Positions 1,162 through 50,071 of a stretch of 64,000 nt of DNA are shown piece by piece; the first letter of the stretch is position 1; each line of letters starts with the position of its first letter. The stretch is taken from the NCBI GenBank assembly GCA_023205875.1, contig CP060755.1, forward strand, positions 1,612,001 to 1,676,000. The letters are read 5' to 3'. The notes beneath the pieces are model-generated. The model was not told the origin of the DNA. It made no database searches and saw nothing but the letters and a program-made list of their open reading frames with translations. Made by a program: the position numbers and the translations under genes. The stretch is from Chloropicon primus (taxonomy: Eukaryota > Chlorophyta > Chloropicophyceae > Chloropicales > Chloropicaceae).

Positions 1162-1394
1162 CGCGATACTCTCTTATCCGCTCGCTCTGGTCCCCTCTCT
1201 CTCTGGTCCACGTCTCTGGGCGAATAGCTTGAGGGCGTTACGACCACAAACGCAAACGCCCCGCTCCAGACAGAGCAGAGAGAGAGGGAGAGAGGGAGAG
1301 AGTTTGCTCTTGTTGCGCTTCTTTTGCTTTGCGGTGAGGGAGTTGGGTTGTGTCTCGAGGTGTGAGACCGATTTTGAGGGGGAAAGAGCGCGCG

Positions 1395-14301: not shown

Positions 14302-14473
14302 CTTGCCCGCGTCAAAGGCGACACACTCTTTGCCTTGCCGCCAATCCAATCAATCAATGGGCGTGTTGTGTGGGCTGACGGACCCCTTTTCCCACCACAA
14401 ACGCAAAATCGCAGATTTGGGGTCGATCGAAGAAGCAAGTCCAGGGGGGGGGGACGTAACGATCCTATAACAA

Positions 14474-22500: not shown

Positions 22501-25500
22501 TTTGCTCGACACCCCCCTCAGCAGTAGACTTCAAAGCGTCGTGTGCGCGCTGGCCTACTTCCAGCTGAAATTCTGAATCCTGCAGCTGCTCAAAAGCTTC
22601 CTTCAACTCGGCATTGCCAGAAGAGGTTTTACGAGCTACTCTCTCTGGATTTGAGAGCAACTTCAAATAGCAGTCTAGTTCCAAAAGCAAAGGCGACATC
22701 CATCTTGGTTGGGGCTTCCCTTTCGCACTATCGGTCCTCAAGAGCTCGACACAGCGAGGAATGATTCCGCACTCCAAAGCATGGTTTCTTACTGCCTCGT
22801 CTTTGCATGAAAGGAGAAGCAGTATGTGAAGAGCCACGAAAGTGTGAAAATCTGGAGATTGTGACAGTTTGGACATCAGCAACTTCACAATATTCCTCGT
22901 GTTTTCTTCCTTTTTCTCTTCACCATCAAGCACAATGCGCACAAGGACCTCGACAAGAGCAAAGGAATTTGTGAGAACAACTTCCTCGCCGTCCCCAAGG
23001 CAATTAAAAGAAACGTGGAGAAAATCTTCTACGCTTGGCAGGTGCAGCTGTCGAACATCCTGCGTCCCGCAAGACGGTTTCTGCCCCTTTTTCTTTTGGG
23101 CATCCTTTGGTTCCAAGGACATGGCCATTGCGCGCGCTAACTCATCGTCCTCCTCCTCCTCCTCGGGCTCTTCAGGGTGATTGAGAAGCCATTCCATGGC
23201 GATCTCCAAATTGTTTGACTTGACTTTGTTCAGTGCAGTCTCTGCCTGTTTTCTTGAGAATCCCATGGCCAAAATTTGCTCAATGATGCTTTCGCTAGGC
23301 TCAAATGCCTTCTCCTTCACGCTTGCGCTCGAAGGAGTGGTGCCCTTTGCTTCTCGGGCTGCATTGTGAAAAATGACCAGCAGCGCAGAGATCACCTGGG
23401 GAGGCAATCTTTGCCTCATACCAGCTTTCCATGCCTTGGTCGCTTCTTCTAAGACTTGGTGAAGCACCATCATGAACAATTGGTTGGAGTCTTGAGGTAC
23501 GTCCACTTCAGTGATACTGCGATCTCCAAACACTTCCGAGACCAAGCCCTCTGGGAACTTGGCCAAGAGCAGATGCGAAGTCGCCGTATTTACCAAGAGT
23601 GTTGACGGATTCAGCACAGACCCAAGAAAGATCAAGATCTTTGTGATAACCTTCGTCAGGGACTTTGACTCCTCCTTGTCCCGACTTTGACTGCTGCAGA
23701 GCATTGCCACATGGCTGCTCAAGCATTTCAAAGTCCTTTGGAGCACTGATCCCCTGATGAATGCGTTTATCAACAAAAAGTTGCAAGACTTCCTCCTCGG
23801 ATCTGCAAGCAAGTTGCTTATATCCTCGATCGACTGCGACACGAAAGACAGCTTTGCTCTCCTGAGCATTCCTTGACAGCATTCCCGCTCAAGGCTCTTA
23901 TCTGCATCGATCACAAACTTTTCCAAGCTCGAGGAGTCATCTTGCTTCTCCGAGAAGATAAAGTAATCAAAGCAGAGCCTTGCCAGAGCTGCAGCAGAAT
24001 CATAGGATTGCTTCCTGGGACTTGTTCTCAAATGAAGACTCCTGCTCGATCCTCTGTCACTTTGTGTATTCCTTGCCAGTGCCTGAAACAATTGTCTGAC
24101 GCTAATCAGTACCCTGCTGACAACATCAATAAACGGCTCAGACTTTGAGTATCTTTTGTGAGTCGAAGTCGTATCTGATTGCCTCGAGCTCCCGCGTGGT
24201 TCTGCGCCGCTATTGCTTTGCTCTGCAACGCTTTTGCCTGAGGTCCCTTTTCCATCAGATTCGCGAGGAGCAGAGCCGCTTTTATCGTTTGCCTTGCTGT
24301 CGTGATACCTCTTCACTTCTTCAAAGAGACAGGAGCACCAAATCAAGGACGACTGAAATGATCCGAGAAGCTCTAACAATTTTGCGCTGTAATCGATCGA
24401 AAAACCATTCAGCGTCAATGACGAGCTCCTAAGAAGATTCCCAGAGAGAGAAAATATGCCCTCTAAGGCATACAGGGTTCCCAGGATAGGCCTTTCCTTC
24501 ACACCCGGAAAAGACAACGTCTGGTCTTTGCCTTTTGCATCGTCTGAACGACCATTCGGCTGTTTCTTCACAGTATGGTCTTCAAGCATGTAGGAACAAA
24601 TCATTGACATCAAGTCGTGGCTCTCTACACCCTTCCAAGCACTAAGCAGCGCCTCGAGCTCCTTGATTAGAGAAGTCGCAACCTCCTTTGAGTGAGACGG
24701 GTTCAGCACTCGGAAGGTCGAAAACAATTGATGAGTTGTTGCCGGGCTTTGTTTTTTCACAGGAATCGTGTAAAGCTTCAGCAGAAATTTGATTCCTCCC
24801 TTTTGCACAAAAGCCTTGCCGACAGAAGGATTCGACAACATTGCTTCTAACAATCTCGCAACGTTGATGACTATTTCTGACATCGAATCCAGGTAAACAT
24901 CTGACGCAGAGGGTTGAGAGGAAGACGAAGGCCTCCCAGATCCATCAAGAGTCGAATCTGTGTCCATGGGCTGGGAGCTGCTCGCTTGACCAGCACTGTT
25001 GTCGCACCTTGAATCATCTCCCGATTCATTTTTGATGGCAGAAACCTGCTGTTCTTTCTTCAACTCCTCACCAATGCCCATGATTTTGTCCACAATGGTG
25101 AACATGACGTCAATGCAAGTCTCCTTCATTTCTGGCACGTGCCTCACTAACTCGTCCAAGCCATTGCCAAGCATGGATGGAGTGTCTCCCTGCAAAGCCC
25201 GACAATGCTGAGGAGACGTAAAGATAGAGACGAGGCAGTCCAAAACTTTGGATTTCTGAACAGCTTTCAGGCCCTTCTTGTTCAGACACAACGCCACCAA
25301 GGTCGAGGGAAGGCAGCAGACCGTATCCGGGGTCACAAGGACACCGTTTTGAACAGTTTCCAAGAAAGCTTTCGGCAGTTTGTGCTTCTCGATGATCGGA
25401 AAGCACGTTGGATCATGGTGGAGGATGTCTGCCATGACGGTAGAGGCAAGCGAAAAGACACTGCTTCCAAGATCCTTTGCCTGCTTGAATATTGCCTCCA

Positions 25501-27239
25501 AGCACTGTGGGAGACCCGAGCTCTCCCCGTCAAAGGTGAGCCTACTCTGTGACCACTCTGTGTCACTGTAGCAAGTCAAGGCGGCAGCCCTTAGAATGGA
25601 TTTTACGAGAAACCGCTTTGCGAGCACTTTACTAGCCCCCAGGCTGGCACCTTGCTCTTCCGTGCCGTTTTTGCAGTCTTCCATCTCAGAGTCGTTTTCG
25701 AGCAATCCCAGCTCCTTCTGCAAGCGCATTATCATCGCCTTGAGACCTTGAAACTCGCGAAATGTCCTCATCACTGAGGGATCACGTTCCACCAGGGCCT
25801 CCAAGATTCGCACAGCGCCAGAGACGATCTGGAGGTGGGGGCCAGTGTATGCCTTGATGATATCCACAAGTATTTGCACTAGGCCCAACTGGGCCAACAT
25901 GGCACAGCCCTGGTTTGACACAGACAAGACTGACACAAGAGACAGCAGGGACTCCAGCAGCTTCTTTCTTTCCTGCGTACCAGTGTTTGCGGCCTCGATC
26001 ACCTCCTTTAGGAAGCGCACAAATTTCTCTTTTTGCTTTCCGCTGTTGAGGTTGCGGAGAAACAGGGATTGCCTGCTCCTGTCACAGCACATGGACGCCA
26101 GCGCCCTCGCCGCCAAATTTTGCAAGTCTCCACAGCCTGCCTCCTTGTTGTGAAGGATGTTCAGCAGATCCAGGACGAGGTCAGGCTCGTTGAGTAACAG
26201 AGACAAATCTTCGTGGTCCGGGCTGGACTGAAAGAGGATGTGGAACGCGGAGAGCCTCATCCTCACCGCATCCACTCTGCTTTGGGGTTCCTTGAGGCTT
26301 CTGACGATCCTGATACGATTCAGGAGAGCAAAGCGCAACTTGAGAGGCACGCCGTACTCCTTCGTTAGGTGCTCGCACACCTCCAGGTTACTCCCGTGCT
26401 GCAAGCTCTGGTGCGTGTCCTTCAACTGGATCACTTGGTGACCCTTGGCTTTCCCCTTGGTCTCCTCGTCCCTGAAAAACTCAAAGTGCAACTCGAACCT
26501 TGAGCCGCCGCCGCTGCTGCTGCTCGCCGCATCGCTGGGGTCGCCCCTCGCTGTTACGCACGAGTACATCGATGAATACGCTTCGATGCCACCCCAACCC
26601 TGGGCCAGGGAGAATATTCTGCTGTAGAGCTCCGTGTTCCCGTGGTGCCACCGGGCGGTCGACTGGAACTGGGACCTGCGCGATATAGTCACAAGAGTGC
26701 TGAGCGACGCAAACACGACCTCAGGCTGCGATGCCGCGAGAAGGTTCGCGAGGTGGTCCAGCGACCCGTAAGCGTGCTTGCTCGTGCAGTTCTCCAGTAT
26801 TGTCCTCGACACCCGAAGAACCTCGAGGCAGGTCTCCACCGGGAACTCCTCCTTGGGCGCATGCGCCTCGTTCTCCCAATCCAGAGTGAAGCGGTGGCAT
26901 TTGACGTGCTTTTCGAACCAAGCGTCGAACAAGTTGAAGAGTTCCAGCCAGTGATTGAACTCTCCTCGGTCGAAACGGGACTGGTATTGATCGCTCCACT
27001 CGAAGGCCCTGAGCGCCTGCAGGAAGCCCTCGTCGCTCTTCCCGCCCTCGTCGGCGATGGCAGCGATGGCCTCCCTCACGGCCTCGGGCTAGGCAAGACG
27101 AACGAACGCAAAACAATGACTCAGCATATAGGTCCTTGGGGGTGGCGCGACAGCCGTGTTGGGCTGGCGGGAAGAGAAAACAAGTGTTGAAAGGCAAGGC
27201 ACTTACCACCTTGACGTTCTTCCGCGTCTTCACCCTCAT
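16571..27239 (-). CDS. UPL1: giant HECT E3 ubiquitin ligase, UPL1/UPL2 (HUWE1) type
   Basis: 3,516 residues in two exons: a tiny first exon 27207-27239 (MRVKTRKNVKV) and 16571-27088, with a 118-base GT-AG intron. The short exon gives the proper ATG; the long frame alone would start only at GTG. Layout matches plant UPL1/HUWE1: N-terminal armadillo-like DUF908/DUF913 region, a UBA domain (EQILAMGFSRKQAETALNKV) with a following UIM-like acidic helix near residues 1270-1330, long acidic Ser-rich stretch near 2010-2130, ubiquitin-binding LP-type motifs (FLEALPENLREEVLSQ, FLAALPLDIQNEVLAQ) near 2450-2600, and a C-terminal HECT domain. The catalytic Cys3483 is in LPTSHTCFNQLDIPEY. It starts head to head with the UPL6-like gene. 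Confidence 0.95.
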
Positions 27240-27699
27240 CCTTTATCTTCCTGTCTCGACGCTCTCCAGCTCCCTTCCTTAGTTCATCGTCCTCGTCCCG
27301 ACCTACGCTTCACGTACTCCACCCCTCTTCGAGCTGAGCTCCCGTGTGCTCCGAACCGTTTCGTGCTCCGCGGGTGCTCGCCGGCAAGGCGTTCGGCTCC
27401 TTCTCCTTCTCCTTCTCCTTCTCTCCCCGCCCCCCAGGCACCCTACGCGACCCCCCTCACGAGGTCTCCTCCCTTCCCTTTCCCTTCCTCCCCTCTCTCT
27501 CTTCTCGCTCTCTCTCGCGCGCGCCAGTCGGAGTCCGTCTTCTCGACGTCGACGATCGCCTCTCTCTCTCTCTCTGGCTCTTTCTTTTGGTTTCGCGATC
27601 GACAGAGGACGGGGGGGAGGAGAACGCGGACGCGGAGGCCCTCTGAAGGAAGAGGAGGAGGCGTGGTGTGCGTGCGTGTGCGTGTGGAGAACTGTCCTC
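27240..27699. promoter_or_regulatory. shared promoter region between two HECT ligase genes
   Basis: 460 bases between divergent start codons. It holds a CTCCTT repeat (27397-27422), pyrimidine-rich stretches with CTCTCTCT, and no TATA box that I can pick out. Both flanking genes encode HECT ligases, so they may be co-expressed. Confidence 0.5.
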
Positions 27700-30690
27700 A
27701 TGTTCTTCGACGGGGATCACCGAACGCGGAGGAGGAAGGTGAAACTGGGGGGGAGGAGCAAGGTGCAGGATAGGCAGCAGACCCTCCAGGAGGCGAGGAG
27801 GCAGAGGGAGGAGAGGCAGAGGAGGAGGAAGGAGGAAGAGGCTTCGAGGACCATTGGAGCCTCCGTGAGGGGAAGGCATGTGGCCAGGGAGGAGAAGAGG
27901 AGGGTGAGGGAGGAATGGGTAGAGAGGAATGGGGTACTGGGCGAGACGCTCGCGGAGTGCTCGGCCGGTGGGGAGGCTGGGCTGCTCGCCGTGAGGCAGC
28001 TCGTCTTCTTCGCCGATCACACGAGGCAGGACGCGCTCAGGCTCTGCTCGGTGTGCGATATGGCGAGGAGGAGCTTCAAAGAAGTCTGGCTGGACGAGGC
28101 GCGGTGCGAGCGGGCGGGCAGGCTCCCGAGTCTCTGCCACTTGCTGGTGGCCAGAAGCGTGTCGCTCCTGAAAAGGAGCGACTGGCTCGAGGGGCAAGAG
28201 CCGGGAAACGCTTGCGGGTCGGAGGGAGGGGGAGGGGACTTGGTGATCAAGGCTATCGAATCCGTGCTGCCCTTTCTTGAACTGTACCTGGACCTCGACA
28301 GGCGCTGCGGCGCGGCAGTCGATGCGGCCGTCGCAAGGACTCTCGCCTTCGTCGTCCAGTCGGGCCTATACCAGTGCGTCGCAAAGCTGCTCGAGTTGGC
28401 GGAGGCCGTGCCAGAGCACCGGGGTCAAATAGAACAGACTTTGATCAAGCTGGTCAAGAGGTGCTTGGAGGAAGAGCTCGTCCACAGCGATCTCTTGGAC
28501 CTGCTAACGGTGACGTGGGTTTTCGAAGAGGGGAGCAAGTTCATGGCAACTCTGAGGGAGCCCTTGTGGGAGGGACTCATGGGGGCGGCGGCCACACCCC
28601 AGGGGGCCGGAATGGTAGGGAGGCTGCTGGAGAGGCACAAAGGCGACGGTGACGTCCACGTGACCTTGCTGAACAACTTCCTGCGGCTGTCCAGGAGTCA
28701 GAGAAATCAATCTAGGTACCTGGCCCCCTTTGTTGGCTTGCTGGACTCTCTGCTCGCCCCCTCGCTCGATGCCAGGCCCGGGGCGGAGCCTCGTGGGGAC
28801 GCCGGTAGAGCCTCGGAGGAGTTGAGCCTGATAGTCACAATGCTGACGGAGAACGTGGAGATGTGGAACGGCTTATCGAAGTCCATCCTGCCCGGCACGG
28901 CGAGCGAGGAGATGAGCCAAGAGAAATTGGATGGAACCCTGGCTCTCGTTTCGCTCTTCTCGAAGCTGATCACGCACTGTGGGGACGCCCAGGCCCTTGT
29001 AGTGATGCTGACCTCGCTCGCGTTCAAAGTTCAGTTTCTGGAGAAGCTGTGGTTCTTCGTGAGGAGCCAGTTGGATTTGGCCTCCATCAGCGAGGGTGAC
29101 CAGGACGACATCAGCAAATCCATCGTCGTGCTTTGCACGGTTCACGTTCTCAGGTTGCAGATCATCAACGACAAGGAGTACTACCAGCAGAATTCCCTCA
29201 TGGACGTCTCAGAACTGAATGACGTTGTGGTGTACATCAAAACGTACATCTCCAACCTGATCGAAAGCAGGCAGCTTTCCGTGGATGACATGGAGGGCAG
29301 CCACCTTTCGTGGTACGAAAAGATGCTGTTTCACAAAGCTGTGGACCACCTGGATAAGCTTCACGAGCAGAACGGCAGGTATCACCTGGTGGAGGATGCC
29401 TCGTTCCACCTGAAAATCACTGCTGACGAGGCATTCCTGAAAGATGCTGAGAACGGAGGGAAGGCGAGATTGATTTGCGTGTACTGCCCCTACTTCATAC
29501 CGTTCCACGACAGGGTGAAGATCTTCAGGCACTTTCTTGAGAAGGACAGGGCCGATTACTACAGCAATCTTCCCCCGGAAGTGAGGATGAACCCTTTCCT
29601 CAGCGCCAAGACGGTGGTCATACGGAGGAAGTACATTCTGGAGGACGGGTACAGCAAGCTCGATCATCTGGGCCAGGCGTTGAAGTGCATCGTGAGGATC
29701 CAGTTCATCAACGAGCTTGGGGAGGATGAGGCCGGCGTGGATGGCGGGGGGCTCTTCAAGGATTTTCTGGAGAATTTAATCACGACGGCCTTTGATACCC
29801 AGTATGGGTTCTTCAAGGCGAATCCGGAGAACAAGCTCTACCCAAATCCTTCCTCGAGTTCTGTGACGACGGAACATCTCAATTTTTTCCGCTTCTTCGG
29901 CAGGATGATCGGCAAGGCCATCTACGAGGGAATTCTGGTGGACGTGCCCTTCGCCGAGTTCTTCCTTCGCAAGATCAGGGGGAAGAAGAATGGATTCGAT
30001 GACTTGCAGACTCTGGACAAGGAGCTTCACAACAATTTGTGCTTCTTGCGGGGCTACGAGGGGAAGATTGAGGATCTTGGCCTGTACTTTGCTGTGGAGC
30101 AGGACAACTTTGGCAGGGTCGTCGTGGAGGACCTTATTCCCAAGGGGAAGGACACGCTCGTCTCCAACGCTAGCGTGATAAAGTACATTCACTTGATGGC
30201 GAACTTCAAGCTGAACATTCAGATGAAGCAGCAATCCATGGCGTTCATGCAAGGCCTGCAGGACCTGGTGAACCAGGAGTGGATATCCCTGTTCAATGAC
30301 TCGGAGCTGCAAGAGCTGATATCTGGCTCGGAGAAGGGCTTTGACTTGGAGGACATGAGAAAGAGCATGCACTATTCGGGGGGCTACAACGAGGCCCACC
30401 CTGTGATCAAGACTTTCTGGTCAGTGGTCTCGGGGTTCACCATAGAGGAGCAGCAGAAGCTTTTGAAGTTCATCACGGCTTGCTCGCGACCCCCGCTCCT
30501 GGGCTTTTCCTTCCTTGAACCGCAGCTTTGTATCCAAAAGGGAGGAGGCAACGAGGGGGACTGCTCGAGGCTGCCTACTGCGGCGACGTGCATGAACTTG
30601 CTCAAGCTGCCTCCGTACGCGACCAAGGAGGAGATGGACGAGAAGATCAGGTACGCCATCAACAGTGGCAGCGGGTTTGACTTGTCTTGA
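27700..30690 (+). CDS. UPL6: HECT E3 ubiquitin ligase, UPL6 (UBE3C/Hul5) type
   Basis: 996 residues from the ATG at 27700. The N terminus MFFDGDHRTRRRKVKLGGRS followed by a basic coiled IQ-like helix (RRQREERQRRRKEEEA) is the hallmark of UPL6/UBE3C/Hul5, which extends ubiquitin chains on proteasome-bound substrates. The HECT domain fills the last 370 or so residues: VRIQFINELGEDEAGVDGGG, FFRFFGRMIGKAIYEGILVD, and catalytic Cys964 in LPTAATCMNLLKLPPY. An earlier in-frame start region exists but is not ATG-led and looks like untranslated leader. The length is close to plant UPL6. Its 3' end almost touches the convergent DEG9 gene (39 bases). Confidence 0.95.
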   Translation: MFFDGDHRTRRRKVKLGGRSKVQDRQQTLQEARRQREERQRRRKEEEASRTIGASVRGRHVAREEKRRVREEWVERNGVLGETLAECSAGGEAGLLAVRQLVFFADHTRQDALRLCSVCDMARRSFKEVWLDEARCERAGRLPSLCHLLVARSVSLLKRSDWLEGQEPGNACGSEGGGGDLVIKAIESVLPFLELYLDLDRRCGAAVDAAVARTLAFVVQSGLYQCVAKLLELAEAVPEHRGQIEQTLIKLVKRCLEEELVHSDLLDLLTVTWVFEEGSKFMATLREPLWEGLMGAAATPQGAGMVGRLLERHKGDGDVHVTLLNNFLRLSRSQRNQSRYLAPFVGLLDSLLAPSLDARPGAEPRGDAGRASEELSLIVTMLTENVEMWNGLSKSILPGTASEEMSQEKLDGTLALVSLFSKLITHCGDAQALVVMLTSLAFKVQFLEKLWFFVRSQLDLASISEGDQDDISKSIVVLCTVHVLRLQIINDKEYYQQNSLMDVSELNDVVVYIKTYISNLIESRQLSVDDMEGSHLSWYEKMLFHKAVDHLDKLHEQNGRYHLVEDASFHLKITADEAFLKDAENGGKARLICVYCPYFIPFHDRVKIFRHFLEKDRADYYSNLPPEVRMNPFLSAKTVVIRRKYILEDGYSKLDHLGQALKCIVRIQFINELGEDEAGVDGGGLFKDFLENLITTAFDTQYGFFKANPENKLYPNPSSSSVTTEHLNFFRFFGRMIGKAIYEGILVDVPFAEFFLRKIRGKKNGFDDLQTLDKELHNNLCFLRGYEGKIEDLGLYFAVEQDNFGRVVVEDLIPKGKDTLVSNASVIKYIHLMANFKLNIQMKQQSMAFMQGLQDLVNQEWISLFNDSELQELISGSEKGFDLEDMRKSMHYSGGYNEAHPVIKTFWSVVSGFTIEEQQKLLKFITACSRPPLLGFSFLEPQLCIQKGGGNEGDCSRLPTAATCMNLLKLPPYATKEEMDEKIRYAINSGSGFDLS

Positions 30691-32531: not shown

Positions 32532-33311
32532 ATGAAGATAGGGACGTGCGAGGCCCCGAGAGGGCTGGAGGTGGAGAGGGGGGAGAGGGAGTGGGGGCGG
32601 GAGATGGTGGGGACGAGGTTTGCGCCCTCGCTCCTGGCCAAGGTGGGTGTGGCGAGGGGGAAGGCCTGCGTGGCGTCCGTCGCCAACGAAGCCGCCCAGC
32701 AGGCGTCGACCAACGCCGCGAGGTCCACCCCCCCGAACCTCCCGCTCGCCCAGAAGATCTCCATCGGGACGCCAGTGACGGGCAAGAAGGCGAAGACCGG
32801 CCCGGTCATGGCGAGTAGGAACGCCAAGGCGGAGAGGTTCAAGGTGTTCCAGGTGATGGGCGACGGGCGGTGCATGTTCCGCGCTCTTGTCATCGGCCTG
32901 GCCCTGACCAAGGGCAAGTTCGTGAGCAAGCGGTCGGAGGAGGCGGAGGCGGACACCCTCCGCATTGCGGCCGCGGAGGCCCTGTGCCGGTCGGCCAGGA
33001 TCCAGGACAGGTACGCCGACTCCGCCTTCACCGTGAAGAGCGAGTACGGCTCCGTGGATAACTACTGCGAGCTCGTGAAGACGCCGGACTTTTGGGGCGG
33101 GAACGCGGAGCTCATGGTCCTTTCGGACATGCTGGAGCAGCCCATCGTCGTGTACAGGCCGGAGAGGGAGGCGAGAGGCAAGGGGAAGGGGTTTGTCCCC
33201 TACGTGTACTACGGCACCGAGTACCTCAGGGAGACCGCCAAGGGGAAGGTCAAGAAGCCCGTGAACCTCCTGTACTCCAAGGGTAACCACTACGACCTCC
33301 TCGTGAAGTGA
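32532..33311 (+). CDS. OTU-family cysteine protease (deubiquitinase)
   Basis: 259 residues from the ATG at 32532. The OTU core starts at about residue 100: [12 protein letters not shown] carries Asp111 and the catalytic Cys114, and NHYDLLVK at the very end carries His253. Between them, [20 protein letters not shown] and [14 protein letters not shown] match the usual OTU spacing. The first 95 residues are a basic, Ala-rich leader that could target an organelle. OTU enzymes remove ubiquitin or related chains. The last seven codons and the stop lie inside the 1,395-bp duplication, whose second copy repeats them after the phospholipase gene. It is head to head with DEG9 (140 bases). Confidence 0.9.
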
Positions 33312-33806
33312 CTGCTCTTGGCGTGGGTGCCTACAGAGGGAATTGAGAATATACCGGTGATGTGACAACCTTTTTTGTGACATAATCTTTTCCGTGTTCG
33401 TCTTTTCCCGTGCCGCATGGATTGTCTTCGTCGATATCGATCGAACATGTCATGGATGGATGGATGGATGGATGGAGGGCCTCCAGCCTCCTTTCCTTTC
33501 CTTCCCGGCCCACAGATCAGATCTTTTCCCTTTCCCCTCCCTTCCCTCTCCGAACGAACGTTATTCAATCAAATAACGAATAACGTACGAAATTTGGTTT
33601 TGGAGGCGGGCAGAGGAGACCACAGCACTCGGGCGGCAAAAAGGCGCGTCCACAGGCGTTGCCGCAGGAGGACGCGGAGGACGCAGGGTTTGCCTCGTCT
33701 CACTCCCGCCCTGGGTCATTCTCAACAGGGAAGGGTAGCGCACGACGCGACCACGAAGAGGAAGAGGAAGAGGTCTCGGTCGATTGAGCGACACCATACA
33801 CAAGCG
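33312..33806. other. spacer after OTU gene, inside repeat copy 1
   Basis: 495 bases. Contains the 3' end of the OTU transcript, a six-unit ATGG microsatellite (33452-33475), a pyrimidine-rich tract (33485-33550) and probably the promoter of the 274-aa gene. The frame of that gene stays open up to an ATG at 33417, but that extension is low-complexity (MDGWMDGG) and is not preferred. Confidence 0.55.
33452..33475. repeat. ATGG microsatellite (copy 1)
   Basis: Six tandem ATGG units. Confidence 0.9.
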
Positions 33807-34631
33807 ATGTGCAGCACGGTCGCTCGTCGAAGCGGCCTCCGTCCTCTGGACTTGAACAACCCCAACAAGATCTGCAGGGAGGTTCTCTCGGAGCTTCGGG
33901 GGAGGCCTGACGCGACGCGGGTCAATCACCTGAAGACCATCTTCGACGCGGCCGAGTCCATCAAAGTGCTGACGTGCAACCACTGCGTCGAGTGCTGCAA
34001 CCCGCCGCTCTGCACGGAGGCGGACGGGAGGGAGCTGGCGTCGCTGGAGCACTTGAGGGGAGTCGTCCACCACGCCGCGCCGAACGTGAGGTCACAGAGG
34101 GTGGGAATGCCTCCCCTCACCGCACCGGACGCCGCGAGCGTGGACGCCGCCCCCTCGGCGCTCTGGCGGAGGAGGGCGGGGGCCCGCGGGGGCCTTCGGC
34201 GGCTGGCGCTGCCCGACTCGTACACGAACATACCGAGGATTTTCCAGGAAATCCTCCTGGTGAGCGACAGCGCGCGGAGGACGACGACTCCTCTCGCACG
34301 GCTCTTGCCGAGGAGCGTCGGCGAGGAGAACGTCCCGCCTCGACAGCGGAAGAGCGGGAAGAGGAAGAGGTCCCTCGCCGAGATCGAGACGAAGGACGTG
34401 AGTTTCTCCAGGAGCCAGAGCCTCTGCTCCGACTTCTCGACGGAGTTCCGCTTCGAGGGCGTCGCGGACGGGTCCCCGGATTCCGTGGGGACTCTCTCGA
34501 ACCAGAATCCGGGGGAGAGGGAGTGCCAACCCGCCAAGCTCAGACTGAAGGGGATCCTGGCCTCTTACCGCATGCTCTCGCACATGATGGAGCTCGGCAA
34601 GGCGCTTGGGACGGTCGCTGCGCGGCACTAA
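33807..34631 (+). CDS. uncharacterised Cys-cluster protein, copy 1
   Basis: 274 residues from the ATG at 33807 (an upstream in-frame ATG at 33417 would give 404). An N-terminal segment (NPNKICREVLSELRGRPDAT, then VNHLKTIFDAAESIKVLT) looks helical. A tight cysteine cluster CNHCVECCNPPLC (Cys57, 60, 63, 64, 69) could bind zinc. The middle is Arg/Ala-rich and disordered. RQRKSGKRKRSL near 180-190 resembles a nuclear localisation signal, and the C terminus LKGILASYRMLSHMMELGKA is a predicted helix. I do not recognise the family. An apparently identical second copy is at 39304-40128. Confidence 0.65.
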   Translation: MCSTVARRSGLRPLDLNNPNKICREVLSELRGRPDATRVNHLKTIFDAAESIKVLTCNHCVECCNPPLCTEADGRELASLEHLRGVVHHAAPNVRSQRVGMPPLTAPDAASVDAAPSALWRRRAGARGGLRRLALPDSYTNIPRIFQEILLVSDSARRTTTPLARLLPRSVGEENVPPRQRKSGKRKRSLAEIETKDVSFSRSQSLCSDFSTEFRFEGVADGSPDSVGTLSNQNPGERECQPAKLRLKGILASYRMLSHMMELGKALGTVAARH

Positions 34632-34989
34632 GTGAGGGGCCGCCCGGACCACGAGCTGCGATGATCCACGGAAGTGGGTGGATTGAGCCCACACACTTAT
34701 GTAATAATATTTCCCCCATTGGGGCAGAGCGACCTCGTATTAAATCGGTAGCGCACCACACGACACTGTGATTTTTTTTGATTCTGGAAGAGGACACCCT
34801 CCTCCTCCCTCCCCTCCCCCGTGCTCCTCCTCCACCACCCGCTCTCCCCCCTCGCATTCGTTCACCTGGTCCGTCCCCTCATTCATTCTAACGCTCGCTC
34901 GGCTTTTTTTTTTCCTCGTCGACGTCGAGGCGAAGGGAGAGGGGTTTCCCGTCCGCCCTTCGTTCTTTCGTGTTTCCGCGGGGCTGCCG
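34632..34989. other. intergenic region upstream of the phospholipase gene
   Basis: 358 bases. The first 52 belong to the repeat. The rest has an AT-rich stretch (34700-34790) and a pyrimidine-rich leader. The phospholipase frame is open back to 34768 but without an ATG before 34990. Confidence 0.5.
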
Positions 34990-37900
34990 ATGGCGTCGTC
35001 GATCGCGAGGGTCGAGACCCTGCGTCGGGGAGCGCAGGGCGTCACGGTTTCGTGGTCGTGGAAGGGCGTTTCCTCCCCCTCTTCTTCGGCACTCATCACG
35101 GACCTGTACCTCCAGGTGGTCCCTGCGAAGGGCACCGAGTCCCTGCGAAGGGCGGTCGTGGACAAGCTCTTCTCGCGGTGGGTGAGATCCGAGGCCTCGG
35201 AGGACCTACCGACCTCCGCGGGAAATGGCCAGATGATTCACTTCCAGGTGAGCGAAGCGGAGCAGGGGGAGAGGAAGAAGCGCATCACGCTGGTGCCCAA
35301 CTGCACGTACGAGATCTCGATCGGGGTAATCACGAGCGAGCGATACGTCCAGAGGAGCAACGTAAGCCGGGTGAGGTTGGGGTTCGTGGTCCTGTGCGTG
35401 GCGGGGTCCGGGGACCTCTCCAAGTCGAGCCGGAAGTCGAGAAGGTTGGATCTCGGCCGGAGCTCCCTCCTGTGCAGGGCGACGACGACGGTGGAGCCCC
35501 CTTCCACCAGGCTGTCGGGCGCCACGAGAGATCCGAGGGGGGAAGCGAGTTGGCACGACGAGGAGGGCGTCAAGCTGGCCGCGTCCTCGTCCTCTGCTGG
35601 CGACCACGAGCTCAGCAACTCCTGGAACCAAGCCCAGGGGCTCAGCATCACGGCGCTCCGGATGGGGGACTTGGAGCCCGTGTACCACAAATGCTTCTCG
35701 ACGTACGACTACCGAGACGATTTCGTGAGCTCCTCGGCAGTGGCCCAGCTCTACACGGAGCTCTCGGAGGTCGGGCGCATCCGGGAGATCATGAGCTCGA
35801 AGGAAGAGAAACATCTGTGGGTCATCGCCTCCTGCGGGGGTTGGGAGGTGTCGAGCAAGTCCAAGCAGCTCGGGAGTTTGCTGTCGAACTTCGTGCTGGA
35901 CCTGGGAGCCTCCGAGGAGGAGGCCAAGAATCTTTCTGAGGCCTCTTTGCGGAAGGGCTCCGCCTCGGGCAGGGGGTGCAGGCCCTTTGCCTTCGTGGGG
36001 GCGTCGCCCGTCTCGTCCACCAGAGCGTTTTTGCTGCCCGAGTGGGCGAAGAACGGCTACACGGATGCGGAGATTCAAGTCTGCCTCTCTTTTGACGAGG
36101 ACAACTGGTTTCCTGCTTTCAAGAGGACGGGAGGCCACTGGCAAGTTTGGACCGGAGTCCCTGAGGAGGCCAGGAGCGACAAGACATTCGAGAGAGTGCG
36201 CACCTCCAACGACTTGAAACTGAGAAGGAACCACGTCGTCATCAACGAGCTGGAGGAGATCTGCAAGCACTTTGCGCACCTGTCGGACGACCGAAGCTTC
36301 GTGCCCTTCGACCTTACCCAGTTCCTTCACATCATTTTTGACATGATCAAGGGCTACGATTACGGAAAAGACCCCGCTGGGCCCAAGGGGAGCGACGCGA
36401 TCGAAGGCGAAAGCCCTTCCCTTGGAATCCACGACCCAGAATGCCCCTCCCCGCGAGCATTCATGGGTGCGGTGGCTTGCCTGTCAGTCGAGCTGGAGTC
36501 TGTCCTCACGAAATTGCTGCAGAACTTTCCCCAACTCGCGTGCCAGTTGGTGGAGGCAGGAGCCGTCGAATTCTTGGTCGCCCGGATCAGCATGCACTGC
36601 GGATTCAGCAAAAGCGGGACGGCCAACAGCCTTCGGCTCTTGGTCGCTTTGGCTTCGGAGAAGATCGAGGAAGCTTTCTCTCCCAGGAAGCATTCGGGTG
36701 ATGGCTGCCCGATGTTGCTGGAGTACTCCAAGAATGCGCAGCCTCGATTGCTGGCGGAGATCCACCGCAGGGGGGGGGTCCTCGCGGCGTCCGTGAATTT
36801 TGAACGCTACTGGGTAGAGGCCGCCCACTCTGAGAATCCTTTGCCAGACTACGGACTGATGCAGAGGTTAGCTGTGTTCATGCTTCAAGTTGCAGAGATG
36901 AGAACGTCCGTGGTGAGCATCTCCTTCTCACGCGAAAATCGTTTCGGGGAAAGACAGAGCTTTGCCGTGAATGCCATCCAGTCCAGACTTCCCATCTCCC
37001 CGAAGTGCAAGGTTGTTCACCCAAAGGGCAAGGTGGTGGTGGCAGACGTGACTTTCATGCAGAATCAATTCGAGCCAGAGAAGGTCCAGGCATGGGGGCC
37101 GGGCTGGGCGAGCAGCGGGGAGCTGCTGGGTTTCTCCGACCCCTGCCTCTGCCTGTTCAAGGACTCCGTTGTCGTCATCCCCGCCGCGAGGGACTGGAAC
37201 ACGCATTGCGCCATTGTACTCCAAGCATGTCGGCTCGTCTGGATAGCCGGCTGCGCTGGAGCAGTCGGGGTGGTTTTTGTTTGGCCGGGGCCGCTGGTCC
37301 AGCAAATGTACCCGAACCTGAACTTCTCCCACCTCACAGAGATTCCCGCTTACATCGTCCCGTCGTCGTCGGAGATCTCCGGAGTCGTGGAAGGAATCCC
37401 CGGTGATGGAGCGGTGGCGGAAATGTCTTTGCTCTACAGCGCGGATGACCGCAAGCAGGCGCTAGAATACGAAGTTCTCGCGCAAGAGGAGGGGCTGTCG
37501 TCCACGGCAACACAACTCTGGGAGGAGTTCTCCATCTGCCTGAAGAGAATTTTGTGCTGTGCGCCGGAATGCTATGAGGACAAGAAAAGGCCGATAAGGG
37601 TGCTGACTCTAGATGGAGGTGGCGCGAAGGGCATCAGCACGATCTGCATGCTGAAGGAGATATCCAAGGCAATCGAAGACGAAGAAGTGGGGGGAAATCG
37701 GTCCAAGGATCGCCAGAAGAGGAGTCTGGCACAGCATTTTGATTTGGTCGTTGGAACGAGTGCGGGAGGCATCATCGCCATGGCGCTGGGTTCCGGCATG
37801 GCCCTCGATGAAATGGAGAACTTCTTCAACAAGAGCGTGCGCGAAATCTTCGCTTCGAGGGACACCTACTGGGACCAGCTTCAGCGAGGTCCAGGAGCTT

Positions 37901-38742
37901 CTGCTGCCAGGCGACTCGAGGAGCTGATAAAGGAAGAGTGGCCAAAGAGGACCCCATTCCCCTGCTCAGCCGACTCGCCTTCTGTAAGCATACCGTATCA
38001 CCGGCCGCAAAAGAATTCTGGGGACCTTCCAGGCATTTGCATGCTGACCACGCTCGTGTCCCGGGAGCCCAGTCGATGTTGCATGCTGAAGAGCTACATC
38101 TCAAACGGTGATCACAGTATTCCTTACCTTCCGGCGGTTCATAGGGCGACCATCCTGCAGTGCATTCGTGCTACCAGCGCGGCTCCCTATTACCTTGAAG
38201 AGCAGCTGTGCCACAAGGACGTGTGCACGGGAAAGTTTTACTCAAGTGATGATACCAGTAGTGTGGACTTGGGCTCAGTCCCTAAGTTGAAGACAGAGTC
38301 CTTCCTGGATTCCGTCCACCTTGAGCCCGTCATAAGCACTTACAGATTCGTTGACGGCGCCATTTCGGTCAATAACCCGACCTGCGCCGCAATCTTAGAA
38401 GCCAGAGCTCTTTACCCCGACCACCCGCTGGTCATCGTGTCCCTTGGGACTGGCAATGGCCTAGCACGCGTGCCCATCAAGACCTATCCGGCCGGGGTTG
38501 GCGTCGTCCTGCAAAATTTAATTACTAGCGTGTCTGATGTCAGCCTCGCAGACTCGTTCGCAGAGCATATGGTTGGGAAGGAGGATGCCTACTTTCGCTT
38601 CTGCCCCACTGGAGACTGCTTCAACGCGGACCTGGGAACGAAGGATCCCGAGGTGTTGTCTCTCATGCAGGCGGAGGCGAAAGCGTACATGAAGCGTCCC
38701 GGCGTGAGGGCAAAGCTCCAAGAGTTGTTGTGTCTGCTCTGA
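34990..38742 (+). CDS. large patatin-like phospholipase (iPLA2/plant PLA-I type)
   Basis: 1,250 residues, single exon. The C-terminal third is a patatin domain: oxyanion loop LTLDGGGAKGIS, nucleophile Ser924 in GTSAGG, and Asp1122 in FVDGAISVNNP, so the Ser-Asp dyad is intact. Such enzymes release fatty acids from membrane lipids. The first 130 residues resemble a fibronectin-III-like beta domain (VTVSWSWKG ... TYEISIGVITS). Residues about 495-570 look like armadillo helices (LLQNFPQLACQLVEAGAVEF, SLRLLVALASEKIEEAF), as in plant PLA-I. The gene sits exactly between the two 1.4-kb repeats. Confidence 0.85.
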   Translation: MASSIARVETLRRGAQGVTVSWSWKGVSSPSSSALITDLYLQVVPAKGTESLRRAVVDKLFSRWVRSEASEDLPTSAGNGQMIHFQVSEAEQGERKKRITLVPNCTYEISIGVITSERYVQRSNVSRVRLGFVVLCVAGSGDLSKSSRKSRRLDLGRSSLLCRATTTVEPPSTRLSGATRDPRGEASWHDEEGVKLAASSSSAGDHELSNSWNQAQGLSITALRMGDLEPVYHKCFSTYDYRDDFVSSSAVAQLYTELSEVGRIREIMSSKEEKHLWVIASCGGWEVSSKSKQLGSLLSNFVLDLGASEEEAKNLSEASLRKGSASGRGCRPFAFVGASPVSSTRAFLLPEWAKNGYTDAEIQVCLSFDEDNWFPAFKRTGGHWQVWTGVPEEARSDKTFERVRTSNDLKLRRNHVVINELEEICKHFAHLSDDRSFVPFDLTQFLHIIFDMIKGYDYGKDPAGPKGSDAIEGESPSLGIHDPECPSPRAFMGAVACLSVELESVLTKLLQNFPQLACQLVEAGAVEFLVARISMHCGFSKSGTANSLRLLVALASEKIEEAFSPRKHSGDGCPMLLEYSKNAQPRLLAEIHRRGGVLAASVNFERYWVEAAHSENPLPDYGLMQRLAVFMLQVAEMRTSVVSISFSRENRFGERQSFAVNAIQSRLPISPKCKVVHPKGKVVVADVTFMQNQFEPEKVQAWGPGWASSGELLGFSDPCLCLFKDSVVVIPAARDWNTHCAIVLQACRLVWIAGCAGAVGVVFVWPGPLVQQMYPNLNFSHLTEIPAYIVPSSSEISGVVEGIPGDGAVAEMSLLYSADDRKQALEYEVLAQEEGLSSTATQLWEEFSICLKRILCCAPECYEDKKRPIRVLTLDGGGAKGISTICMLKEISKAIEDEEVGGNRSKDRQKRSLAQHFDLVVGTSAGGIIAMALGSGMALDEMENFFNKSVREIFASRDTYWDQLQRGPGASAARRLEELIKEEWPKRTPFPCSADSPSVSIPYHRPQKNSGDLPGICMLTTLVSREPSRCCMLKSYISNGDHSIPYLPAVHRATILQCIRATSAAPYYLEEQLCHKDVCTGKFYSSDDTSSVDLGSVPKLKTESFLDSVHLEPVISTYRFVDGAISVNNPTCAAILEARALYPDHPLVIVSLGTGNGLARVPIKTYPAGVGVVLQNLITSVSDVSLADSFAEHMVGKEDAYFRFCPTGDCFNADLGTKDPEVLSLMQAEAKAYMKRPGVRAKLQELLCLL

Positions 38743-38785
38743 GCTGGGAATACACTACTCCGCATGCGCTCCAGGAGCGTCCTGT

Positions 38786-38808
38786 ACTACGACCTCCTCG
38801 TGAAGTGA
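38786..38808 (+). pseudogene. stranded 3' tail of the OTU gene
   Basis: Last seven codons plus stop of the OTU protease, copied with the duplication. Too short to code for anything, but it marks the direction of the duplication. Confidence 0.85.
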
Positions 38809-38948
38809 CTGCTCTTGGCGTGGGTGCCTACAGAGGGAATTGAGAATATACCGGTGATGTGACAACCTTTTTTGTGACATAATCTTTTCCGTGTTCGTCT
38901 TTTCCCGTGCCGCATGGATTGTCTTCGTCGATATCGATCGAACATGTC

Positions 38949-38972
38949 ATGGATGGATGGATGGATGGATGG
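38949..38972. repeat. ATGG microsatellite (copy 2)
   Basis: Six ATGG units, same count as in copy 1. Microsatellites change quickly, so the equal count supports a very recent copy or an assembly duplicate. Confidence 0.9.
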
Positions 38973-39303
38973 AGGGCCTCCAGCCTCCTTTCCTTTCCTT
39001 CCCGGCCCACAGATCAGATCTTTTCCCTTTCCCCTCCCTTCCCTCTCCGAACGAACGTTATTCAATCAAATAACGAATAACGTACGAAATTTGGTTTTGG
39101 AGGCGGGCAGAGGAGACCACAGCACTCGGGCGGCAAAAAGGCGCGTCCACAGGCGTTGCCGCAGGAGGACGCGGAGGACGCAGGGTTTGCCTCGTCTCAC
39201 TCCCGCCCTGGGTCATTCTCAACAGGGAAGGGTAGCGCACGACGCGACCACGAAGAGGAAGAGGAAGAGGTCTCGGTCGATTGAGCGACACCATACACAA
39301 GCG

Positions 39304-40128
39304 ATGTGCAGCACGGTCGCTCGTCGAAGCGGCCTCCGTCCTCTGGACTTGAACAACCCCAACAAGATCTGCAGGGAGGTTCTCTCGGAGCTTCGGGGGA
39401 GGCCTGACGCGACGCGGGTCAATCACCTGAAGACCATCTTCGACGCGGCCGAGTCCATCAAAGTGCTGACGTGCAACCACTGCGTCGAGTGCTGCAACCC
39501 GCCGCTCTGCACGGAGGCGGACGGGAGGGAGCTGGCGTCGCTGGAGCACTTGAGGGGAGTCGTCCACCACGCCGCGCCGAACGTGAGGTCACAGAGGGTG
39601 GGAATGCCTCCCCTCACCGCACCGGACGCCGCGAGCGTGGACGCCGCCCCCTCGGCGCTCTGGCGGAGGAGGGCGGGGGCCCGCGGGGGCCTTCGGCGGC
39701 TGGCGCTGCCCGACTCGTACACGAACATACCGAGGATTTTCCAGGAAATCCTCCTGGTGAGCGACAGCGCGCGGAGGACGACGACTCCTCTCGCACGGCT
39801 CTTGCCGAGGAGCGTCGGCGAGGAGAACGTCCCGCCTCGACAGCGGAAGAGCGGGAAGAGGAAGAGGTCCCTCGCCGAGATCGAGACGAAGGACGTGAGT
39901 TTCTCCAGGAGCCAGAGCCTCTGCTCCGACTTCTCGACGGAGTTCCGCTTCGAGGGCGTCGCGGACGGGTCCCCGGATTCCGTGGGGACTCTCTCGAACC
40001 AGAATCCGGGGGAGAGGGAGTGCCAACCCGCCAAGCTCAGACTGAAGGGGATCCTGGCCTCTTACCGCATGCTCTCGCACATGATGGAGCTCGGCAAGGC
40101 GCTTGGGACGGTCGCTGCGCGGCACTAA
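39304..40128 (+). CDS. uncharacterised Cys-cluster protein, copy 2
   Basis: 274 residues, identical to the product at 33807-34631, with the same upstream 495 bases, so the promoter is probably copied too. It retains the CNHCVECCNPPLC cluster and the KSGKRKR signal. Only the sequence more than 50 bases after the stop differs from copy 1, so transcripts could be told apart only at their 3' ends. Confidence 0.65.
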   Translation: MCSTVARRSGLRPLDLNNPNKICREVLSELRGRPDATRVNHLKTIFDAAESIKVLTCNHCVECCNPPLCTEADGRELASLEHLRGVVHHAAPNVRSQRVGMPPLTAPDAASVDAAPSALWRRRAGARGGLRRLALPDSYTNIPRIFQEILLVSDSARRTTTPLARLLPRSVGEENVPPRQRKSGKRKRSLAEIETKDVSFSRSQSLCSDFSTEFRFEGVADGSPDSVGTLSNQNPGERECQPAKLRLKGILASYRMLSHMMELGKALGTVAARH

Positions 40129-40394
40129 GTGAGGGGCCGCCCGGACCACGAGCTGCGATGATCCACGGAAGTGGGTGGATGGAAATACACAAAAAATACT
40201 GCCCCCAAGCAGGAGGGGCGGAGCGTGATGAATCGTGAATCAGTATAAAATTACAGTATTATTATTATTTTCAATCGGCTTTGGATCTTTTCTAGCTCCA
40301 GGCAAGGTTGCCGAGCGAGAGTACTCTGGCTCTGCTGGGACGCGAAACACCAGTTTTCTCGAGCAAACTTGACAAGATTGTGTTTGTGGCGAAG

Positions 40395-41401
40395 CTATCC
40401 CGCTTTCTTTCTCGATTTCACAGAGACGTTCAAGATGTCCGGGATGGACACCTGCACGCTCTTCCCCATGGTTGTACACAGGCTGACCGACTTGATGTAG
40501 CCCTGAACGCCACTTCCCTTGACCCCCTTGGGCCTGGCAAGCATGATGGCACTGAAGAAAGCCGCGACGTTATCTACGAGAGCATCTCTGTCCAGGTCAA
40601 CTTTGCCCAGGCCAGCGTGTATCACTGCGCCCTTGTCCTGCCTGAAGTCGACCCTTCCCTTCTTGAACTCGGTTATTGTGGAGACCACGTCGTCCGTCAC
40701 TGTGCCCTTCTTCGGGTTTGGCATGAGACCCTTTGGACCCAAAACCCTTCCAAGCTTGGCAACTTTCGGCATCATGTTAGGAGTCGCCACGAGCTTGTCG
40801 AAATCCAGCATACCTCCCGCAATCTCCTTGATGAGGTCCTCGCCCCCCGCCAAGTCCGCCCCCGCCTCCTGCAAAGGCAAAGGAAACACCAGGAAAATGG
40901 AGTGAGTGGGAGAGTGTGCGAATTGCACAAAGAGGTGGAGACTCACCTTGGCCTTCTCCAGCTTATCGAAGTCGTCCGTGAGCACCGCGACCTTGGTCTG
41001 CTTCCCCGTGCCGTGGGGCAACAGGGCGGAGCCGCGAACAATGTGATCCGACCTAAGTCACAAATGGGAAAGCACAGAATTAGCAAAGTCAGCGATCTGA
41101 ACAGTGAAGCAAAAGCAAAGCAAGGATTTGATACTAACCTCTTCGGGTCCGTCGCGAGGTTGACGTGGACCTCTAGGGTCTCCGTGAACTTGGCCTTCGC
41201 CTCCGCCAGGGCCTTGGAGACGGCTTGGTCGAGGGGGACTGTTTCATCCTTCCTCTCGCCAGCCTGGGTGGCGAACAGAACGGACCCAACCGCGCCGTCC
41301 GCCTTCGACAGGAGGAAGGACGCCGGGACGGTCCTTCCAACGTTGTCGAGGCTCCAGGTCGGTTGGCGCGAGGCACCGAGTCTCAGCAGTCGAGCAAGCA
41401 T
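40395..41401 (-). CDS. bacterial-type ribosomal protein uL1, organellar
   Basis: Three exons: 41139-41401, 40947-41052 and 40395-40868, GT-AG introns of 86 and 78 bases, 280 residues. The family pattern is clear: LLPHGTGKQTKVAVLTDD, the ADLAGGEDLIKEI loop, ATPNMMPKVAKLGRVLGPKG-type core, LMPNPKKGTVT, and VRVDF/KGAVIHAGLGKV. This is the bacterial form of uL1, which builds the mobile L1 stalk. The leader MLARLLRLGASRQPTW is Arg/Leu-rich without acids, as in mitochondrial presequences, so I favour the mitochondrial ribosome over the plastid one. Confidence 0.88.
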
Positions 41402-48778: not shown

Positions 48779-50071
48779 TCACCCCCTCCTCCTCAAGTGT
48801 ACCACGCACTCGGACCACTCCGTGTACGGGAAGTGATCAAAGACCTTGAAGCTCCTCAGCTCGTGGGTGTTCGTCAATTGCTCCAGACAAGCCTTGAGCG
48901 TCTCGGCGTTGCAAGATATGTAGATGATGTGATCGAAGGCGTTCGCGACGTGGAGGGTGTTGGGGTCGAGACCTGCCCTCGGGGGGTCCACAAGAATCGT
49001 GGAGAAGTCGAACCCAGAGTAGGCTTGGAAATCTCCTCCCCTCTTCGCTCGAACATTCTGACTGAACTTCATGCAGCACGACTGGCACAGCTGCACGTTG
49101 GCAACCGAATTGCTTCTCATGTTCTCCCTCGCCGCACTGACGAGGGACTTGTTCAGCTCCACCGAAAGGATCCTGGAGAAGTGCGGTGACAAAGGCACCG
49201 TGTAATTCCCGTTCCCGCAGTACAAGTCCAGCAAATCCCTCCGGACCCCACCGTCGTCTCGCGCGATCTGCGAGGCGAGGCCGCAAATGTGTTCGATCGT
49301 CCTCTTGCAGATCTCTCCGTTCGGATTGCTGAATGAGCCCTCGACCTGCTTCCAACTCAGAACGGAGTCGTTGATGCGCATGGACTCCACGACGTAATCC
49401 TTCCCGCACACGAGCTTGACCCCCTTCGACCTGCCAATCAGAGATACCGAGAGACTGTCCCCGAGCCTCTTCGCCTCACGCTGCCACTGCTCCGCGTCCT
49501 CGAGGGGCTTGTCGTAGACGAGAGTCACCACAACGTCCTTCTCTGCGAGGGTCGTCAGGTAATGAATGCCAGTCAGGTTCGTTCTCAGGACCGGAGACCC
49601 CCGCCCCAGCGCGTCCGCTACCTTTGGCATCAGGGCATTGATCTGCTTCGAGGCGACGGGGTAGGACGAGACCGAGACCCGGGGTCCCCCGCGGTTGTAG
49701 AGAGTGTGTGTGAGAGAGAGCCCATCGACGCCGTCACCGTCGCAGCTGACGCCAAACCGACACCTCAGCCTGAAGTACGCCTTCGGCGACACCTCCCGCG
49801 TCACCTCGCACCCGTCCCGATCGAGGAGATCCCCGAAGGTCCCCTCTATGCCCCTTATTTTCGCTCCTAGGACCTCCTCATACTCCTCGGGTTTGTAACT
49901 GGAGAGCAGGGGTATCCCTGCTCCCTCCCTCGACTCCGCCCTCACCACTTTCGACGGCCCGCCGGCCCTGCTCCTCGCGAAGCCTCCGCCTGATGTCCCG
50001 CTCCTCCCCGCTCCCTCCCTCGACTCCGCCCTCACCACTTTCGACGGCCCGCCGGCCCTGCTCCTCTCCAT
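48779..50071 (-). CDS. TrmA-type tRNA (uracil-5-)-methyltransferase
   Basis: 430 residues. The C-terminal half has the full TrmA/RumA set: LDLYCGNGNYTVPL (AdoMet site), ILVDPPRAGLD, the catalytic cysteine in YISCNAETL, and the FDHFPYTEWSECV ending typical of TrmA. It makes ribothymidine at tRNA position 54. The form is bacterial-like and the N terminus is Arg/Ser/Gly-rich, suggesting import into an organelle. The first 52 residues contain a duplicated 19-residue block (SRAGGPSKVVRAESREGAG). It is head to head with STE24 (83 bases). Confidence 0.88.
   Translation of the reverse strand: MERSRAGGPSKVVRAESREGAGRSGTSGGGFARSRAGGPSKVVRAESREGAGIPLLSSYKPEEYEEVLGAKIRGIEGTFGDLLDRDGCEVTREVSPKAYFRLRCRFGVSCDGDGVDGLSLTHTLYNRGGPRVSVSSYPVASKQINALMPKVADALGRGSPVLRTNLTGIHYLTTLAEKDVVVTLVYDKPLEDAEQWQREAKRLGDSLSVSLIGRSKGVKLVCGKDYVVESMRINDSVLSWKQVEGSFSNPNGEICKRTIEHICGLASQIARDDGGVRRDLLDLYCGNGNYTVPLSPHFSRILSVELNKSLVSAARENMRSNSVANVQLCQSCCMKFSQNVRAKRGGDFQAYSGFDFSTILVDPPRAGLDPNTLHVANAFDHIIYISCNAETLKACLEQLTNTHELRSFKVFDHFPYTEWSECVVHLRRRG
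49920..50066. repeat. 57-bp direct repeat in the TrmA 5' coding end
   Basis: Bases 49920-49976 recur at 50010-50066, a 90-base period, without a visible mismatch. It duplicates part of the presumed targeting leader in frame. Confidence 0.9.

Follow-up and report, generated by a model that had tools for sequence, protein, structure and literature searches.

The question raised by this locus in the green alga Chloropicon primus is why two long identical stretches of DNA lie on either side of a patatin-like phospholipase gene. The window, i.e. the whole stretch of 64,000 nucleotides (nt) that was analysed (contig CP060755.1, positions 1,612,001 to 1,676,000 of the forward strand, assembly GCA_023205875.1), was flagged in an original prediction that offered three options for the repeats, namely a very recent event, ongoing gene conversion or an assembly error. 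This proved to be the right set, of which the sequence favours the recent event, with the other two kept as rivals. The repeats probably arose through a recent, proximal duplication, at the DNA level, of an entire small gene, here called gene X, most likely in one step; this estimate also takes in a two-step route to the same arrangement. This is an ordinary kind of event, here in an unusually clean example.

The prediction of two identical 1,395-bp direct repeats was borne out, in that positions 33289-34683 (copy 1, + strand) and 38786-40180 (copy 2, + strand) form a maximal exact block, matching at 1395/1395 bases in direct orientation with a start-to-start distance of 5497. The predicted identity through a six-unit ATGG microsatellite was equally correct, the array (33452-33476 and 38949-38973) comprising 6.2 units at 100% in either copy. 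By length the block far exceeds every other exact repeat in the window, direct (at most 276 bases) or inverted (at most 350 bases), the longest of each kind belonging to an ABC-transporter family, and the probability of a random origin for an exact match of 1395 bases is negligible. No third copy was found by BLAST of the block against the window, the further matches being 16-21 nt. Comparison of the 1-kb flanks of the two copies gave one 11-nt match on the left (E=0.43) and, on the right, no match at E<=1. Shuffled sequences reached the left-flank scores in 89/200, 65/200 and 153/200 cases at 60, 150 and 300 nt, respectively, and the right-flank scores in 40/200 and 119/200 cases at 150 and 300 nt. 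The flanks of the block are, by these comparisons, unrelated, with homology stopping abruptly at each end.

The block contains the end of an OTU gene, a 495-nt region 5' of X, an open reading frame (ORF) of 825 nt and 52 nt past the X stop. Gene X (33807-34631, + strand), an ORF of 274 amino acids identified by its codon statistics, is duplicated from start to stop and is intact in copy 2 (39304-40128, + strand; 274/274 amino acids identical), and its noncoding flanks, 495 nt upstream and 52 nt downstream, were copied with it inside the exact block. The intergenic region between the OTU gene and X (33312-33806, + strand) holds the ATGG array and, by composition, the putative OTU 3' end and a CT-rich leader of X. 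Under a coding model trained on 12,833 codons from 17 other ORF stretches of the window, X scored +0.28 per codon from its ATG at 33807, with GC content by codon position of 0.60/0.52/0.88, against -0.22 for the longer ORF reading 5' of that ATG and 0.24-0.59 for native ORFs, most of which were scored by a model that they had themselves helped to train. The X frame was also the best of six in 10 of the 11 sliding windows from 33800 to 34550. Given that the coding signal is present from the X ATG on and that the ORF lies whole inside the block, the block most likely represents a complete gene plus the DNA leading into it. The original prediction had described repeats flanking a phospholipase gene; that gene does lie between the copies, but each copy comprises an entire gene plus upstream DNA and is not a boundary repeat around the phospholipase, and the coding score brings out what had been overlooked, namely that X and its leader lie whole inside the block.

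Gene X has no recognised family, with no match at E<=1 in Pfam, PHROGs or NCBIfam, and its protein had no match at E<=1 among plasmids. Pattern searches for relatives returned 83 stretches in genome_contigs and 18 in viral_contigs, neither of which is a eukaryote genome collection, and none of these was confirmed. The fold predicted from the single sequence had a mean pLDDT (predicted local distance difference test) of 45.7 and a pTM (predicted template modelling score) of 0.22, with a C-terminal helix as the only fairly confident part, and was of too low quality to be used. Three sets of resemblances were taken as chance: five weak matches of X to solved structures, the best being a response regulator over 35 residues (E=0.044); a match of a 404-amino-acid longer reading of X to Pfam DMAP1 (E=0.57, 10.5 bits vs a cut-off of 25); and, as a candidate sign of phage origin, a DNA match over 79 nt at 76% identity (E=3e-3) to one Rhodococcus phage, represented by two records, which was the only one in the phage search.

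The direction of copying can be read from the left end of the block. The neighbour on the donor side is an OTU-type cysteine protease gene (32532-33311, + strand; Pfam OTU E=6.5e-12), and the last 23 nt of this gene are the first 23 nt of the block, whose first base is the second of a histidine codon and which continues through six sense codons and the stop. The earlier claim that copy 2 carries the last seven OTU codons holds when the stop is counted. The full-length OTU gene is present at copy 1 only, and the Peptidase_C65 match of its protein (E=1.3e-5) covers profile positions 159-243 of 243, i.e. it reaches the last position. In addition, OTU residues 169-254 align to a solved chain titled RNA-directed RNA polymerase L (E=2.2e-4), the aligned part of which is presumably an OTU domain, and this alignment ends at 'NHY', where the block starts. 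The OTU tail is most likely native at copy 1, where the gene is complete, and orphaned at 38786, from which it follows that copy 1, contiguous with the complete OTU gene, is the source and copy 2, with the orphan tail at its front, the daughter. This is the direction originally proposed, and the OTU profile match running to the profile end at copy 1 agrees with it. Searches for OTU relatives in the same two collections gave 10 stretches in viral_contigs and 36 in genome_contigs, none of them confirmed.

The joins of copy 2 are blunt, with 0 and 1 nt of shared bases, and the absence of transposon ends noted in the original prediction extended to every mark of a mobile element that was sought. 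There was no flush target-site duplication at copy 2 (0 nt), no terminal inverted repeat in the block (scores reached by 195/200 shuffles for 30-nt ends and by 188/200 for 200-nt ends), no poly(A) at the copy 2 join, where the block ends GTGGGTGGAT, and no Helitron-like end, the block ends being AC and GGAT with T and G as flanking bases. Helitrons carry 5' TC and 3' CTRR and insert between A and T. A target-site duplication was also considered for two 7-mers that occur in both 80-nt flanks of copy 2, and was rejected, as they are not flush and at least one such 7-mer arises in 17% of shuffles. A retrocopy or transposon-carried copy, whether by retroposition of an OTU-X read-through RNA, by a Pack-MULE or by a Helitron, would account for a gene copied without its neighbour, and a stretch of six A, about 10 nt beyond the right end of copy 2, could be counted in its favour. 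Because poly(A) at the join, a target-site duplication, terminal inverted repeats and TC...CTRR ends are all lacking, and the block start falls inside the OTU gene, such an origin is scarcely credible.

The setting of copy 2, between convergent phospholipase and ribosomal L1 genes, was missed by the original prediction. Copy 2 begins 43 nt past the phospholipase stop and ends 214 nt from the oppositely directed L1 gene. The phospholipase gene (34990-38742, + strand; Pfam Patatin E=1.6e-16, scored as 34993-38742; start codon presumed) is a bystander between the parent and daughter genes X. To the left of copy 2 is a 43-nt stub of the phospholipase 3' end (38743-38785, + strand), which has no A+T-rich tract (at most 10/20 A+T), and to the right is the remainder of the original phospholipase/L1 convergent intergenic region (40181-40394), with an A+T-rich tract at its start. 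The ribosomal protein L1 gene, which is in pieces (40395-41401, - strand; Pfam Ribosomal_L1 E=2.7e-44 over 40395-41021; start codon presumed), has one intron of about 78 nt with GT..AG ends and likely a second intron upstream. The top solved match of the L1 protein was chain 4v61_BD (Ribosomal Protein L1), presumably of the spinach chloroplast ribosome, slightly ahead of the next, 50S L1. On a rough 27-ORF map of the window, a complete ORF is contained in about 7% of 1395-nt segments drawn at random, and about 23% of positions fall outside coding sequence. A whole gene in a gap is thus not the commonest outcome, which is weak evidence that fits the survival of a harmless or useful event.

The position of the joins relative to likely transcript ends suggests how the insertion could have been tolerated. 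A+T-rich tracts, defined as at least 15/20 A+T and sought within 300 nt of ORF stops, follow 23/24 other ORF ends in the window at a median start of 25 nt past the stop, versus 0.84% of window positions. This count omits the ORF end at 58539, which by eye has no tract and would probably make it 23/25, and the ORF starts and ends used in the coding, tract and flank analyses were the analyst's picks, some of which are not verified genes; in the coding analysis the row 'otuNterm', displaced by one base, was set aside. The OTU tract starts 56 nt past the OTU stop, inside the block. For the phospholipase, the first tract is now the OTU-derived one, at 122 nt, compared with 41 nt in the modelled empty site, and for X copy 2 it is the old phospholipase tract, at 50 nt (in a 20-nt window that overlaps the join by 3 nt). 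X copy 1 has its own tract at 59 nt, just beyond the copied block. Copy 2 thereby seems to lend the OTU 3' tract to the phospholipase and to borrow the phospholipase's own. Across the window, words such as TATTA, ATAAT and TGTAA are enriched in the tracts (example ends 30690/30730, 55868/55967 and 63055/63109), and in several convergent pairs one A+T-rich tract is common to both genes.

The duplication could have proceeded as follows. A 1395-nt stretch, running from the last OTU codons through the OTU 3' end and the whole of X to 52 nt past its stop, would have been copied 5.5 kb downstream with its orientation kept and inserted where the phospholipase and L1 genes converge on a short gap, the join being made by end-joining of a DNA fragment or by a template switch, which the sequence cannot separate. 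Both X genes would be expressed, the phospholipase transcript would now end in the OTU 3' end, and X copy 2 would end in the old phospholipase 3' tract. As a result of this swap of 3' ends, the insertion may have harmed neither neighbour and may have doubled the dose of X. A small share of the probability given to the duplication belongs to a route in which about 5.5 kb (OTU tail, X and phospholipase) was first duplicated in tandem and the second phospholipase then deleted. The final arrangement and direction would be the same, with the left join of copy 2 being the tandem join, but two events are needed, and downstream of copy 2 self-BLAST of the window revealed no trace of a further phospholipase, nor was there any match of the right flank.

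A doubtful extension of the proximal duplication is that the block is a self-insulating module, starting with its neighbour's transcript end and stopping short of its own, so that in a convergent 3' gap it swaps ends. Such segments might survive insertion into a compact genome far better than random ones, the pair may reflect selection for a doubled dose of X, and the repeats may favour recombinational loss or amplification of the phospholipase.

The main remaining doubt about the duplication is an assembly error, by which a single X was placed twice, for example in gap filling or in the merging of haplotypes with X at different places. Perfect identity, microsatellite included, is what such an artefact of assembly or scaffolding would produce. 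Conversely, the window has an N count of 0, both junctions are base-precise in unique flanks, and an ABC gene family with exact runs of up to 350 nt was resolved in the same window. Repeat collapse is also the commoner assembly error, a further point against a single copy placed twice. Overall, an artefact appears unlikely. A search for one junction as exact DNA gave 0 hits in viral_contigs, which, as above, is not a eukaryote genome collection.

Also to be weighed is an older duplicate held identical by gene conversion, for which the window offers a precedent in three ABC-transporter genes that share exact runs of 350, 276 and 119 nt with 20-29% of aligned bases differing, conversion between linked paralogs being likely. 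These ABC-2-type genes (1350-3434, + strand; 3691-5826, + strand; 12277-14349, - strand) are mosaic, with third-position differences per 40-codon bin of 0-25% in most middle bins and about 28-68% outside, a pattern that points to gene conversion, inverted copies included; for the first pair, codon alignment shows a longest exact run of 220 nt, splitting the 276-nt run found by the exact-repeat search. The exact ABC runs sit in longer diverged homology, unlike the X block, which is identical to the last base at both ends and has no diverged fringe in comparisons from 150 nt to 1 kb. Under conversion, unprotected ends should diverge, and the outer 2 x 50 nt, without a single difference, bound that divergence at about 3%. 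Maintenance of an old pair by conversion is therefore quite improbable.

For a recent duplication, the 0/1395 differences give a 95% upper bound of 0.215% divergence. The Chlamydomonas mutation rate of 3.23 reportedly carries an exponent of -10. At rates of 3.23-5.55e-10 per site per division, taken from the Chlamydomonas, diatom and haptophyte values in PMC7486954, the bound corresponds to approximately 1.9-3.3 million cell divisions. If conversion acts on the X pair, the age bound becomes the time since the last conversion.

Several observations weigh against a young duplicate of a protein-coding gene. Identity alone is no proof of youth, as gene conversion is visible among the ABC-transporter genes of the same window, and the second copy depends on the assembly. 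The score of the 60-nt right flanks (17) was reached by 3/200 shuffles, a signal that is gone at 150 and 300 nt. The antisense frame of X scores nearly as high as the sense frame (0.23 vs 0.28) and is higher in one of the 11 sliding windows (34100), and codon statistics, in a scheme where the training ORFs score themselves, are the sole ground on which X is considered protein-coding. Finally, the A+T-rich tract stands in for a 3' end and is not a mapped poly(A) site.

Elsewhere in the window, a gene at 52130-54202 (+ strand) encodes a monomeric NADP-dependent isocitrate dehydrogenase (TIGR00178, 1106 bits vs a cut-off of 950), a type best known from bacteria, in a window otherwise eukaryotic in character. 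Two HECT ubiquitin ligases lie head to head (16571-27079, - strand, and 27346-30690, + strand), the former an uninterrupted ORF of 3502 amino acids with the domains DUF908, DUF913, UBA and HECT. Two small duplications are found within long ORFs, one at 14979-15221 with a 120-nt unit present twice in tandem (95%) and one at 49915-50066 with two copies at 90-nt spacing (98% over 62 nt). No tRNA and no Rfam match at the gathering score were found in the window.

If real, the X pair is a newborn gene duplicate with both joins intact, in which direction, extent and breakpoints are readable without comparison, and a clean test case for how, in a compact genome, a gene can land in the 3' end of another and leave it unbroken. 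The two perfect 1.4-kb direct repeats around the phospholipase would also predict its loss or gain by recombination.

Among known systems, duplications by template switching (microhomology-mediated break-induced replication or fork stalling and template switching, MMBIR/FoSTeS) or by end-joining resemble the X pair in being short, dispersed, direct copies with blunt or 1-nt joins, the mechanism in the case of X being suggested by its joins. The X pair probably belongs with the complete DNA-mediated small-scale duplicates, in which, as described in PMC3449122 and PMC2728529, a whole ORF is copied with flanking DNA. The size of the 1395-nt block is typical of the duplication spans given in PMC2728529, where the C. 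elegans median is 1.4 kb and that of 68 yeast events 1,004 bp. Unlike such duplicates in general, the X pair is 100% identical and still has the coding tail of the parent's neighbour attached, so that the sequence by itself reveals direction and joins. The highly similar duplicates (HSDs) of green algae, such as Chlamydomonas sp. UWO241, are likewise near-identical and intact, and approximately 30% of those reported in PMC9580922 are hypothetical proteins without Pfam domains, as is X. However, HSDs are defined there by protein similarity (at least 90%) and length, whereas here a single pair is identical in its noncoding DNA as well.

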